Shown in pieces: positions 36,456 to 52,275 of a DNA stretch of 52,329 nucleotides. The notes under the pieces were generated by a model. That model was given only the letters and a program-made list of their open reading frames with translations, did not search any database and was not told where the DNA came from. The DNA is from a virus: the IMG/VR virus record IMGVR_UViG_3300050821_003564, positions 1-52,329 of that record; one strand, given 5' to 3'. Position 1 is the first letter of the stretch, and each line of letters begins with the position of its first letter. Position numbers and translations under genes: made by a program.

Positions 36456-36473
36456 ACTAGCACCATTGCTAGT
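36456..36473. promoter_or_regulatory. perfect inverted repeat at the cassette transcription start
   Basis: ACTAGCA and TGCTAGT form a 7-bp perfect dyad with a 4-bp centre (CCAT), located at about +1 of the leftward cassette promoter and upstream of its ribosome-binding site. It could be an operator or a 5' stabilising stem-loop. Confidence 0.6.
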
Positions 36474-36479
36474 ATCAGC

Positions 36480-36515
36480 ATTATAGCACGACAGAAAGAC
36501 CAAACAAAATGTCAA
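36480..36515 (-). promoter_or_regulatory. extended -10 promoter of the leftward cassette
   Basis: Leftward, TGCTATAAT (-10 at 36480-36485) is a consensus extended -10. A TTGACA exists at 36510-36515, but the 24-bp spacing is too long, so the promoter probably depends on the extended -10 with a poor -35 (TTTGTT). The string GTGCTATA also occurs at the main leftward promoter. Confidence 0.62.
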
Positions 36516-37007
36516 GATCAATTTATAGGTACTATTCATCAAATGATCGTAGGACATACTTAAACCATAGTTGAAGAGGTGCACCTAGTTCTGTGTTTGT
36601 TCCATAACTGCTGTATGTAACATATTCGTGAGAAGTAGAATAATCTTCTCTAGCAGTTAGTAAGAACTAACAATCGTTAAGGTTGAGTAGACAAAGTAAT
36701 ACCCGCCGGCATACGGTACGGCGGGTTAAGTAGTTGATTGTTGATAGATAGTATAGGTAGCAATGAAACTAGGTCTTACTATAGTATAGGAAGATTTTAT
36801 GCTTGTCAAGCAAATTCGTACCAACAACCAAATAAATATCAAACAAATATCAAACAAACATACCGCGTACGCCATGTCTCGTAGCCCGAAAATTAAGTAT
36901 GACAGGACACGCCGCCTGGCCGGGTGCTCTTGCGCAACATATAGTACAGATAGCTGCTTCTAACTTAAACCTACTATAGTATATGCTAATACTGGCCTAC
37001 GACGCTA
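36516..37007. other. intergenic region with hairpins and tandem repeats, no gene seen
   Basis: Elements visible are: palindrome AGGTGCACCT (36577-36586); hairpins GAGAAG/CTTCTC (36630-36650), GTTAGT/ACTAAC (36656-36671) and ACCCGCCG/CGGCGGGT (36701-36726, terminator-like but with only a weak T-run leftward); a tandem 11-bp repeat AAATATCAAAC (36834-36855); and ATCAAACAAAC plus CCGCGTACGCCAT (36849-36875), matching elements on the far side of the cassette. Several TATAGTAT-like AT boxes occur. Probable control and possibly replication-origin DNA. Confidence 0.55.
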
Positions 37008-37053
37008 TTAGAAAGCTTCTACATTTGACCTAGGCTTTCTAACCTGCTATACT
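37008..37053 (+). promoter_or_regulatory. main rightward promoter with a 9-bp inverted repeat across its -35 box
   Basis: TTGACC (37025-37030), 17-bp spacer, TATACT (37048-37053) with TG two bases before the -10. TTAGAAAGC (37008-37016) and GCTTTCTAA (37034-37042) form a perfect 9-bp dyad centred on the -35, a strong operator candidate. The first rightward gene begins 66 bp downstream. Confidence 0.75.
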
Positions 37054-37118
37054 GTGTACAATGCCGAGCAGATATTGAAATCGACGGGATTTCAGGGTCG
37101 GCAGGGACGGAGGATACT

Positions 37119-37322
37119 ATGGTTGCAGGACGGAACTTACGGCCTAAGCCAAAGCACACGTTGGTGCTGACGCCACAAGCACGCATCGTCACATCAGTGA
37201 CGGACTCAACGCGGGATAGATTCATTCCGCGAGATGTAGCCAAACGAATGTTTGATGAAGGGAAATTGACTGAGATTGATCTCGGTCCTGATTATCCCGA
37301 TACTTACATGAGCACGGAGTAA
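37119..37322 (+). CDS. hypothetical protein, 67 aa, first gene of the rightward arm
   Basis: GGAGGATACT precedes the ATG. It encodes MVAGRNLRPKPKHTLVLTPQ and ends DYPDTYMSTE, with a basic N-terminus and acidic C-terminus. As the first gene after the main rightward promoter it is probably expressed early. No family recognised. Confidence 0.65.
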   Translation: MVAGRNLRPKPKHTLVLTPQARIVTSVTDSTRDRFIPRDVAKRMFDEGKLTEIDLGPDYPDTYMSTE

Positions 37323-37327
37323 TGCTC

Positions 37328-37573
37328 ATGAGCTATACATTCACTTCACAGTATGTGGGTCCTGTTCATGGAAATGATGGGATCATCAAGTCTTATGCTC
37401 GTCACATAGGAGACATACCAGGATGTATTTATCCTGATAATACTCCGAGTCCCAAGCGTGTATGGGACAGTGATTATGACGACACACAACATTGGAAGGT
37501 GACGCAGATCACCTTCTTCTTTGATCCGAAAGGTAAGCTGACACACACGGCTAGGGCAATCAGACCGTTGTAG
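37328..37573 (+). CDS. hypothetical protein, 81 aa
   Basis: I prefer the ATG at 37328 (MSYTFTSQYVGPVHGNDGII), eight bases after GGAG, over the ATG at 37322, which is too close to it. The sequence contains HIGDIPGCIYPDNTPSPKRV and a beta-like KVTQITFFFDPKGKL. Function unknown. Confidence 0.55.
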   Translation: MSYTFTSQYVGPVHGNDGIIKSYARHIGDIPGCIYPDNTPSPKRVWDSDYDDTQHWKVTQITFFFDPKGKLTHTARAIRPL

Positions 37574-37629
37574 TGCGTCGGGCTGGCATCCCGTTATCAC
37601 TGCCTTATCATCATCCAAAGGAGGGGAGC

Positions 37630-37845
37630 ATGTCTTCAATACGTAAATACTGTGAACTGTTCAAAACATCTAGACCAGGATATACTCCAGGAGCATGGAA
37701 TGTAGGCAAAGTTCTTATAAATCAGAACTACTGCCCTGTGATGCTTGGAGACTGGTGTTCCCGAGAATCGGCAATATGGTGGATAGGGTACTATCGTTAT
37801 ACCTATCCACAATTTGAATTCTGCCTAATAGGGAGCGAGATATGA
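37630..37845 (+). CDS. hypothetical protein, 71 aa
   Basis: The ATG at 37630 follows GGAGGGGAGC; an in-frame GTG at 37573 has no site. The protein (MSSIRKYCELFKTSRPGYTP) is rich in Tyr and Trp (SAIWWIGYYRYTYPQFEFCL), which suggests a compact beta-domain. It overlaps the next start by 4 bp. Confidence 0.58.
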   Translation: MSSIRKYCELFKTSRPGYTPGAWNVGKVLINQNYCPVMLGDWCSRESAIWWIGYYRYTYPQFEFCLIGSEI

Positions 37846-38057
37846 CTGAACATACACGCACCAAAGAGAAGTTAGCCAGGATTGCAGCCAAGACTTTCTT
37901 TGCTGCATTGATGCGTTATGACTTGCTTGAATCAGATGAAACCCAGCATTATTGGGTCGTTGCCTTAGAAGAAATAGCCAAAGAAAATGGCTATGAATTG
38001 TTCAGATGTGTAGACTGCAATCGTCTGTATTTCGACAAGATCGGAGAAAGACATTGA
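37842..38057 (+). CDS. hypothetical helical protein with a CxxC, 71 aa
   Basis: GGGAGCGAGAT precedes the ATG. It encodes MTEHTRTKEKLARIAAKTFF and a C-terminal FRCVDCNRLYFDKIGERH with one CxxC pair, possibly half of a metal site. Function unknown. Confidence 0.6.
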   Translation: MTEHTRTKEKLARIAAKTFFAALMRYDLLESDETQHYWVVALEEIAKENGYELFRCVDCNRLYFDKIGERH

Positions 38058-38149
38058 TTAACATATTCAAAACTCTATTCATAGATAATTGGTGGGAACC
38101 GATGATCTTTGTGGCATTCTTCGTGGCGAAAGGACATGGGTGGTTGTGA
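38054..38149 (+). CDS. possible small membrane protein, 31 aa, TTG start
   Basis: TTG at 38054 has GGAGAAAGACA upstream and overlaps the previous stop. The peptide MINIFKTLFIDNWWEPMIFV is hydrophobic with a Trp pair. Its TGA overlaps the next ATG (TGATG). Consistent with the coupled tiny membrane genes elsewhere in the genome. Confidence 0.42.
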   Translation: MINIFKTLFIDNWWEPMIFVAFFVAKGHGWL

Positions 38150-49981: not shown

Positions 49982-51080
49982 TTTCTGAGGAGCGTCAGTC
50001 CTAACGGACCTACTCTCAGAAAACTACCGCTGGTCCAAACAGCGGCCTGACGGCAGGCAATTAAAGGTGACGCACACGTCACCCTATGTAAGCCTGAAGT
50101 GAGCAGTAGCGTTGGCTATATTCTTGCAGGGTGGTTCCTGCACCGATCAGAGGACAGCCGGAAAAGAACTGGATTCAGGTTAGAGGAAAGCCTGGCCGAC
50201 GGATCGGCAGACACAAACCTTGCTGTCCAGCACAGACAAAGTGCCGAAGCCTCGAACGAAAGCTAGTGGGCGTTAAGCCAGGTGCTTAGCGGCCTTGAGG
50301 GTTCGAATCCCTCCTTGACTGTAGCGAAACATGGGATATCCGTGGTACACGCACTAGCTGGAGTTACATACTCCTGGTTCAAATCCAGGGTATCTCTAGA
50401 AGGTACCGTCTTTACGGGCGAGATAGACATGCGGACTGATCTCCTGGGCTAGATAGACTGGAATGCCCGAGGTGTAAACAAAGGCCTGACGCAGCCCTGG
50501 TATTGTATGTGCGACTTTAGAGCGTAAGCTCACTGCAACGTACCAAAACACATGAGCGACGTGAAGCACCGTCTCATGAGTACCCGCTGCCGGATGTGAA
50601 CATCTGTAAGTGATCGTCTGCACTAGCATACGCTGACTAACCGAAGTAACCTCCCTTTGAAAGGAGAGTAGGACTGTTGGAGCGAGATATTCGATCCTCA
50701 GGAGTCAGTAGGAAATGAAGTGACCCTGACTCAGGGAAACTTATAGACCTGGTAGATAGCTGTCTACTTTCTATCAGGCAACTAGGTGCTCTGCTGTACA
50801 ACATAGCACTGATGTTGGAGGCCACTTAACAGAGGCCGTGGGATATGTCGGGTGTATAAGCTCGCTCTGATGCCCAATGGCTGTTTGAGCAGTCCATGTT
50901 CCTAGTAGCATCGCCTAGGTTCGTTTCCTAGGATATTCTGGACAGAGACGTGTCTGATGCGAAAGAGCACACACGTAAGACTCTTGTTAGGTGAAGCTTA
51001 ACTGTAGACATCCAGTAGGAGAAGAGACCATGCCTCGGAAACCTACAGAACTGCTGGTACCACCTTAAGTGGTACTTGGG
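49982..51080 (+). ncRNA. giant structured noncoding RNA candidate, about 1.1 kb, GOLLD/ROOL-like by form
   Basis: No convincing gene exists here in either direction, while near-perfect hairpins are densely packed: TTTCTGAG/CTCAGAAA (49982-50022), GTCC-TAAC-GGAC (49998-50009), CCGCTG/CAGCGG (50027-50045), GGTGACG/CGTCACC (50066-50083), TGCAGG/CCTGCA (50125-50142), GGACAGC/GCTGTCC (50152-50228), GCCGA-CGGA-TCGGC (50195-50208), GAGC-GTAA-GCTC (50520-50531), CATGAG/CTCATG (50551-50578), GAGTCAG/CTGACTC (50702-50732), ACGTGT/ACACGT (50948-50976) and GTACCAC/GTGGTAC (51057-51075). Three tRNA-like T-arms occur at 50297-50313 (TTCGAAT loop), 50373-50389 (TTCAAAT) and 50915-50931 (TTCGTTT). Orientation follows from the GNRA and T-loops. 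Phage GOLLD and ROOL RNAs share this size and setting; family membership is inference. Confidence 0.65.
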
Positions 51081-51115
51081 ACTGGGGGTTTGACACGCAA
51101 GAAAGAGAGGACAAA

Positions 51116-51436
51116 ATGTCCTGTATGTATAACGCCACCATGCCTTGGTGGATGATGCAGCAACCGATGGGGCCTTCCATGCCAATAAACACAAATCCTG
51201 GTATGGGTCTTGAGTACATGGAAAAGGCAATGGATATCGCCAAGAAGCTCGAGCGCAGAGCGCTGAAGAAAGAGCTTCGTGATGAAGAGAAAAAGAAGAA
51301 GGATAAGAAACCTGATAAGAAATTTAGGGACTTTACTTTCTGGGAAACTTTTGGTATACTAACAATTGGATCTATGATCTTAGGTCCATTCATTGCACAC
51401 ATGCAACTTGCATATTTGGAAAGCTTAGTACGATAA
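51116..51436 (+). CDS. hypothetical membrane protein with basic helix, 106 aa
   Basis: GAGAGGACAAA precedes the ATG. Residues 1-30 are Met/Pro/Trp-rich (MSCMYNATMPWWMMQQPMGP). Residues 35-70 form a strongly charged Lys/Glu/Arg helix. Residues 75-97 (ETFGILTIGSMILGPFIAHM) form one membrane segment. It sits between the large structured RNA and the exonuclease gene. Function unknown. Confidence 0.6.
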   Translation: MSCMYNATMPWWMMQQPMGPSMPINTNPGMGLEYMEKAMDIAKKLERRALKKELRDEEKKKKDKKPDKKFRDFTFWETFGILTIGSMILGPFIAHMQLAYLESLVR

Positions 51437-51471: not shown

Positions 51472-52275
51472 ATGGAGAAGCCTGATGGATGGTTCACCGA
51501 AGTTCTTGCTGGAACTCTTTCCACTGATATCTCTAGGCGCCTCAGAGCAAGCCTTAACGATGAGCGGAAGGAGAGACCTACCCTCCGTTTGTCTGCAATG
51601 GGTCCGAGATGTCCACGAGCTCTCTGGTATTCCATACACAAACCAGAGCTGGCTGAACCTCTACCTCCGTGGGCTAAAATTAAATTCTCTTATGGCCATA
51701 TACTTGAGTCTCTCACCATAGCATTAGCTAAAGCCTCAGGTCACTTGGTCACAGGAGAGCAAGATGCAGTCTATGTCGACGGCATCACTGGACACAGGGA
51801 TTGTGTCATTGATGGTCACGTGGTTGATGTTAAATCTTGCAGTAGCCGCGCTTTTGACAAACTCAAGCATAAGACTCTCGCTCAAGATGATTCTTTTGGT
51901 TACTTGGATCAACTGGACGGGTATTTGGTGGGATCATTTGATGATCCATTGGTCACGTCTGACGTCGGGTATATTCTAGGAATTGACAAAGTATTAGGAC
52001 ATATGGTATTATATGAGCATAGAGTACGAGAAACTTCCATTAGAGAACGTATTGAACGATACAAAGCTGTGGTTGAAAGACGTGAACCGCCGGCTTGTTT
52101 ATGCGGAACTCAACCTAAAGGAAAGTCAGGAAATATTAGACTCGATGTTAGAGCGTCTTACTCAGCTTACAAACATTGCTGCTTCCCAAAACTTAGAACC
52201 TTTATCTACGCAAGCGGACCGGTCTACCTGACCAAAGTAGTGAGGAAACCAGATGTACCGGAAATTTACGGCTAA
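51472..52275 (+). CDS. PD-(D/E)XK exonuclease (Cas4/RecB-like), 267 aa
   Basis: Residues 40-80 have RLSAMGPRCPRALWYS and YGHILES; the nuclease core is GHRDCVIDGHVVDVKSCS (Asp110, Asp119, Lys121), then FGYLDQLDGYLVG (QhxxY motif). The C-terminal block (GKSGNIRLD, LRTFIYASGPVYLTKVV) is typical of phage exonucleases of this type. The usual CSYC pair of the iron-sulfur version reads ASYS here. It probably processes DNA ends for recombination or host DNA breakdown (the T7 gp6 role). No good ribosome-binding site is visible before the ATG. Confidence 0.85.
   Translation: MEKPDGWFTEVLAGTLSTDISRRLRASLNDERKERPTLRLSAMGPRCPRALWYSIHKPELAEPLPPWAKIKFSYGHILESLTIALAKASGHLVTGEQDAVYVDGITGHRDCVIDGHVVDVKSCSSRAFDKLKHKTLAQDDSFGYLDQLDGYLVGSFDDPLVTSDVGYILGIDKVLGHMVLYEHRVRETSIRERIERYKAVVERREPPACLCGTQPKGKSGNIRLDVRASYSAYKHCCFPKLRTFIYASGPVYLTKVVRKPDVPEIYG

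Follow-up and report, generated by a model that had tools for sequence, protein, structure and literature searches.

A putative class of giant phage RNA with a permuted tRNA-like domain and a Pro-Pro-stop mini-ORF

YrlA is a Y RNA and a circularly permuted tRNA mimic (PMC11472068), in which a Ro60-binding stem is combined with a tRNA-like part that binds and tethers PNPase (PMC8394870); competitive inhibition of a tRNA nuclease by YrlA has also been suggested (PMC7790460). Giant structured RNAs form a second group of relevant molecules, of which few classes are known from bacteria and phages and the functions are open. A third group comprises short upstream reading frames with a C-terminal proline motif, at which a ribosome is expected to stall near the stop codon and ahead of another gene. 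In E. coli, a Pro-Pro pair at the C-terminus disturbs termination and leads to SsrA tagging (PMC2998420), and in CutF of Rhodobacter a C-terminal proline-rich motif acts together with a stem-loop (PMC9973294).

We analysed a virus record of 52,329 bases from IMG/VR (hereafter the window), in which a stretch of more than 1 kb between replication genes combines features of these three groups (Table 1). Each of its modules has a known relative; as far as a limited check extends, the combination and the RNA body are without a known counterpart, and no description of such an RNA was found in open-access papers. Our best explanation is that the stretch encodes a giant phage RNA of a new class, in which a tRNA mimic is combined with a mini-ORF that would arrest termination. 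Taken whole, with its putative function, we regard this reading as evenly poised; its identity part is very probable, and its functional part is less likely than not. Since the Y-RNA-type tRNA mimic and the presumed termination-arrest peptide both have known biochemistry, the function is directly testable.

The locus and comparative evidence for a folded RNA

The stretch lies within a rightward block, with primase/helicase and DNA polymerase genes on its 5' side and a Cas4-like exonuclease gene on its 3' side, and is apparently transcribed as part of a rightward replication operon; promoter and terminator scans of the locus gave chance level only. It comprises 1134 nt without a plus-strand ORF of at least 60 aa, the runner-up in the rightward gene block being 231 nt, and its GC content is 0.51 against 0.43 for the genome. 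A reading made from the sequence alone had called this the longest gene-free stretch of the genome, which holds for such plus-strand ORFs within the rightward block and fails when both strands are counted: longer stretches then exist, for example 36457–38088, a second gene-poor stretch between the leftward and rightward gene blocks with no ORF of at least 100 aa on either strand.

Table 1. Features of the stretch and its 3' neighbours, in window coordinates
Feature	Position	Strand	Basis or remark
Giant structured RNA region	49982..51115	+	Flanking genes taken as bounds; no plus-strand ORF of at least 60 aa; same-place stretches in relatives; covariation (L002, subgroup A)
Circularly permuted tRNA-like domain, whole	50261..50359	+	Covariance model (CM) match 50297–50352, E 0.0057 among 1.12 Mb; part of minimum-energy fold
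Closing (anticodon-stem-like) helix, 5' strand AGCTAGTG	50261..50268	+	8 bp with 50352–50359
Variable-arm-like hairpin, stem CGTTAAGC / GCTTAGCG	50271..50291	+	Compensated A-U/G-C change in L002
T-arm GAGGG-TTCGAAT-CCCTC	50297..50313	+	Conserved in L002
Unpaired 8-nt linker replacing acceptor stem	50314..50321	+	Predicted fold; L019 and L055 similar
D-arm, stem GCG 50324–50326 / CGC 50350–50352	50322..50352	+	Hairpin 50330–50344 inserted in D-loop; CM match and predicted fold
Closing helix, 3' strand CACTAGCT	50352..50359	+	Pairs with 50261–50268
Second T-arm-like hairpin CCTGG-TTCAAAT-CCAGG	50373..50389	+	Window-specific insertion, absent from L002
Shine-Dalgarno (SD) region of mini-ORF (AGTAGGAG)	51014..51029	+	Sequence
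Mini-ORF MPRKPTELLVPP and stop, 12 residues, Pro-Pro-stop end	51030..51068	+	SD-preceded
Downstream gene, 106-aa protein without known family	51116..51436	+	Hydrophobic segment near C-terminus, read from sequence
Cas4-like exonuclease gene, synteny anchor	51472..52275	+	PHROG 1990, E 1e-27

The polymerase and the Cas4-like protein served as queries to gather relatives from IMG/VR, giving 86 loci, some contigs among them counted twice and many loci lying on contigs of about 50 kb. A gene-free stretch of about 1–2.5 kb separates the DNA polymerase and Cas4-like exonuclease genes in nearly all of some 70 related soil-phage loci. Measured from the nearest gene on the 5' side (or from the polymerase end), the mini-ORF lies at a median distance near 1.46 kb, a rough value because chance ORFs shorten some distances. 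The closest named phages at the protein level (identity about 33–42%) have Roseobacter-type bacteria and Lentibacter as hosts, and Sinorhizobium in the case of the Cas4-like protein. No nucleotide homologue of the stretch was matched among named phages, and in CRP-4, CRP-13 and phiM6, three of the nearest by protein, a comparable stretch is absent between polymerase and Cas4-like gene. Two features of the relatives lie elsewhere: ordinary tRNA-Ile or tRNA-Leu genes (L033 394–467, L044 4315–4391, L051 1014–1099, L061 1665–1750, L064 2165–2251, L069 57–143), and, in L082 (8001–10370) and L086 (8001–10271), a polymerase match some 0.3–0.4 kb longer than in other loci, which may indicate an intein or intron within the DNA polymerase gene.

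Single-sequence folding energy was dropped as evidence of RNA structure: two overlapping 900-nt pieces gave z-scores of −3.15 and −1.55, and a coding piece of the DNA polymerase gene, used as control, scored alike at −3.42. The case for an RNA is therefore comparative and not thermodynamic. For the 8 loci of subgroup A, aligned over 1422 columns, the consensus fold reached z = −39 relative to column shuffles; changes on both sides affected 152 pairs, compared with 40±7 in shuffles, and the sense strand folded better than the antisense (−422 versus −368). The window itself aligns well with L002 alone (67% over 971 nt), and covariation in this pair is weaker (z −4.6; 64 both-side changes against 51±6 shuffled); the antisense strand has more double changes (82), so the signal is not strand-specific and the strand assignment rests on the relatives and on sequence motifs. 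Helices of the window are nonetheless found again in L002 with changes on both sides, which bears out the many stems seen beforehand. The comparison shows a conserved predicted RNA fold in the stretch, and the proposal of a giant structured RNA is upheld by the same-place stretches of relatives and by covariation that is strong in subgroup A and in the domain described below and modest for the window and L002. RNA bodies of different subgroups have little sequence in common, so that several related but separate RNAs are possible.

A permuted tRNA-like domain of YrlA topology

Embedded in the stretch is a domain in which T-arm, a short or absent capped acceptor and D-arm follow in that order, and a helix that takes the position of the anticodon stem closes it. 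The arrangement is that of a tRNA opened at its anticodon and sealed at its acceptor. The T-arm is followed by a short hairpin (a GAAA-capped stem in some loci, almost nothing in others; capped acceptor stems are of 4–8 bp in relatives other than L019 and L055) and then by a D-arm resembling that of tRNA-Leu, TGGYGNAA..GG.A.ACRC. With its acceptor end capped or nearly absent, the domain in the form drawn here cannot be charged. In the window the copy is degenerate, with a linker for the acceptor, a hairpin in the D-loop and a low score, and L002 has the simple form of the D-arm, AGCGAAATTGGCAAACG.

A covariance model of the domain was seeded with five units only, because MAFFT misaligned capped acceptors of unequal length. 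Among its non-seed matches (to about E≤0.02, place checked), 27 of 30 lay in the stretch on the sense strand, where 10.7% would be expected, and the other three lay in or adjoining tRNA-Leu genes (ARAGORN) of those loci. Across 35 aligned matches 98.9% of the cells are paired, and a covariation of 0.565 compares with 0.138±0.016 shuffled and at most 0.105 slid, in an alignment fitted to the model; changes in the T-stem are visible without the model too. The strand 3' of the D-arm pairs with that upstream of the T-arm, beating all 1000 partner permutations, and the T-loop hairpin motif is tenfold denser in the stretch than elsewhere in the same loci, with 85 occurrences in sense against 3. Comparison thus shows, at the level of predicted structure, a circularly permuted tRNA-like domain that is embedded in the stretch and has the topology of YrlA.

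The sequence-only reading had counted three T-arms and had assembled two segments beginning GGGATAT into two acceptor/T-arm units. The first T-arm stands and the second is an insertion peculiar to the window; the third (about 50917–50935) falls, since its loop TTCGTTT lacks the A expected at position 58 and it is absent from L002. Both units give way to competing conserved helices, one between 50392–50396 and its compensated partner 50420–50424 in the L002 comparison, and one between 50830–50845 and 50871–50887 in window and L002 alike. The tRNA-like flavour is thereby retained in the form of a single permuted YrlA-type domain, not as two units of standard order.

With YrlA (RF02553) the domain has in common the T-arm, capped acceptor, D-arm and closing stem at the anticodon position, and with them the permuted tRNA-like topology. 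The Rfam YrlA model, which is independent of the building of ours, matched L075 in the same register (E 3.2e-5), and the sole place that it reported in the window was a weak one, 50275–50363 (E 0.41); scores of 39.6 bits for L075, 22.4 for L025 and 12.5 for the window lie, as everywhere tested, below the Rfam gathering cut-off of 69 bits. YrlA is an RNA of 90–150 nt with a Ro60-binding end stem, whereas the phage domain, although closed by a stem, sits inside a structured region of more than 1 kb; most phage copies have a class II (Leu-like) D-arm, and the phage RNA carries the mini-ORF. The domain is YrlA-like in fold but is not classed as YrlA. L075 (2768–2895) contains a nearly perfect permuted class I tRNA, with D-arm TAGCTCAGTGGTAGAGC and an acceptor of 7–8 bp continued by a 24-nt intervening segment.

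No Ro60/Rsr (TROVE) gene is present in the window, and a host-encoded one is possible; of 34 virus records tested one has such a gene: L190, a record of uncertain membership in the lineage. This 66 kb record has a capped permuted domain together with the TROVE match (E 3e-17). What the locus would represent is the Y-RNA tRNA-mimic fold in use in a virus lineage without a Ro60 gene. A pattern search for the permuted domain through the whole collection returned mostly pairs of tRNAs lying side by side; once the matches had been filtered, many bacteria still had unannotated capped domains (L211–L328, many of them Flavobacteriia), with a Leu-like D-arm and mostly outside tRNA genes, for example L220 1886–1936, L224 2808–2858 and L231 3175–3227 (minus strand). 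Ro60/TROVE is absent from 18 of 20 bacterial genomes with such domains, so Ro60-free Y-RNA-like modules may be common.

The mini-ORF and the gene downstream

An SD-preceded mini-ORF ending Pro-Pro-stop occurs towards the 3' end of the stretch in 62 of 68 loci, the L002 counterpart being MFLPSLTELLVPP plus stop, so the stretch is not wholly gene-free as had been supposed. When mini-ORFs were defined strictly (SD match of 5–6 bases, ATG, 8–35 codons), 44 of 63 ended in Pro-Pro within the region against 1 of 85 outside it on the same strand, and on the antisense strand the corresponding counts were 0/23 and 0/84. Codons before the Pro-Pro end are under purifying selection in two subgroups, with pN/pS of 0.20/0.64 (0.31) and 0.27/0.64 (0.42). 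The last proline codon is CCT in 37 of 44 cases, against a CCT share of 44% in the polymerase genes. The comparison shows a putative coding frame under protein-level selection with a Pro-Pro-stop end. A protein frame conserved across homologues had been named beforehand as a finding that would speak against an RNA; it is confined to this small 3' mini-ORF and does not extend to the RNA body. We also considered CCTCCTTAA as an anti-Shine-Dalgarno mimic copying the 16S rRNA tail and rejected it, its translation being the Pro-Pro-stop end of the mini-ORF.

By sequence only, then, the mini-ORF has the features of an arrest-peptide leader, namely a short, presumably translated frame (SD, pN<pS) with a stalling motif (Pro-Pro-stop) upstream of a gene. 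It differs from CutF and the E. coli case in that it is joined to a giant covarying RNA containing a tRNA mimic, and its peptide is otherwise variable, with stalling presumed. In nearly all loci no other element intervenes between it and a small gene, the start of which is 13–250 nt away. With a ribosome placed in silico at its stop, the next SD had a mean accessibility of 0.48 instead of 0.33; accessibility rose by more than 0.2 in 21 of 62 loci and fell in 4, with no rise in the window. The small protein 3' of the mini-ORF often starts with a Pro/Tyr/Met-rich segment (L005, L019, L036 and others; such as MYWPPPPYYG), likely to be EF-P-dependent.

Proposed mechanism and alternative readings

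RNA body and mini-ORF may form one system, the argument being their joint conservation at one locus. A ribosome translating the mini-ORF would stall on reaching the stop codon, since termination is slowed by a preceding Pro-Pro. Retained in this way on the RNA's 3' part, the ribosome could influence decay, processing or cleavage, and in some relatives might open the SD site of the gene that follows. For the tRNA-like domain, a host protein that recognises the tRNA elbow is a possible binding partner; partners of YrlA include PNPase and tRNA-modifying enzymes. A more specific version, which we consider rather doubtful, is that of a ribosome-engaging phage RNA of more than 1 kb that holds the ribosome at its own mini-ORF, so that the permuted tRNA mimic in cis acts on the ribosome or on recruited factors.

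The strongest competitor, unlikely in our estimation, takes the whole as a long cis-acting 5' leader of the small-protein gene, RNA and mini-ORF together being an arrest-peptide switch with no separate role in trans. The position of the mini-ORF directly before the small gene, the modelled SD effect and the precedent of CutF all suit it, and no terminator or promoter was found between the two frames; against it, a leader needs neither a covarying RNA of more than 1 kb nor a tRNA mimic, and the SD effect is missing in the window and most other loci. Somewhat less probable is an RNA-only assembly that would form an oligomeric cage as GOLLD and ROOL do; the mini-ORF would then be a leader belonging to the following gene and unrelated to the RNA. 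The phage RNA resembles GOLLD and ROOL in size, in its dense structure, in being phage-encoded and in its connection with tRNA (PMC12286853). Those two have nearby or included tRNAs, however, where the phage RNA has a permuted mimic, and the phage RNA lies between replication genes and not in a tRNA island; its body is poorly conserved between subgroups, and mini-ORF and RNA are conserved together. Rfam gave no family for the stretch in the window, GOLLD, ROOL, tmRNA and tRNA included (none for GOLLD/ROOL at E≤5), and in ten relatives none reached the gathering threshold for GOLLD/ROOL.

The tRNA-like domain might instead be a decoy for host tRNA-targeting enzymes such as defence nucleases, the giant RNA serving as a stable carrier of one or more decoys. 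Several loci have two to four T-arm motifs, and the suggested inhibition of a tRNA nuclease by YrlA offers a parallel, but the domain is without an anticodon loop and anticodon nucleases would therefore miss their target; we consider the idea very unlikely. That the RNA is a divergent two-piece (permuted) tmRNA, the mini-ORF serving as its tag frame, is extremely improbable. T-arm, acceptor and 5' part are ordered as in permuted tmRNA, a short frame lies on the same RNA, and L075 has a local match to beta_tmRNA (E 2.3e-5); this match is limited to the T-arm and acceptor hairpin, however, with 29.3 bits against a cut-off of 84. The phage domain has a canonical, tRNA-type D-stem and an acceptor often absent or tetraloop-capped, while the mini-ORF is equipped with an SD and a start codon of its own and has a Pro-Pro-stop end in place of a degradation tag. 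ARAGORN found neither tRNA nor tmRNA in the window, in agreement with the absence of a complete cloverleaf noted from the sequence, and no tmRNA in the stretches of relatives. Decay of a cluster of ordinary phage tRNA genes is scarcely credible, for although T-arm and D-arm sequences are near those of real tRNAs, ARAGORN made one doubtful, anticodon-less call in the stretches (L041), and the reading is already refuted by covariation, the permuted order covarying in divergent phages and the bulk of the covarying structure lying outside any tRNA.
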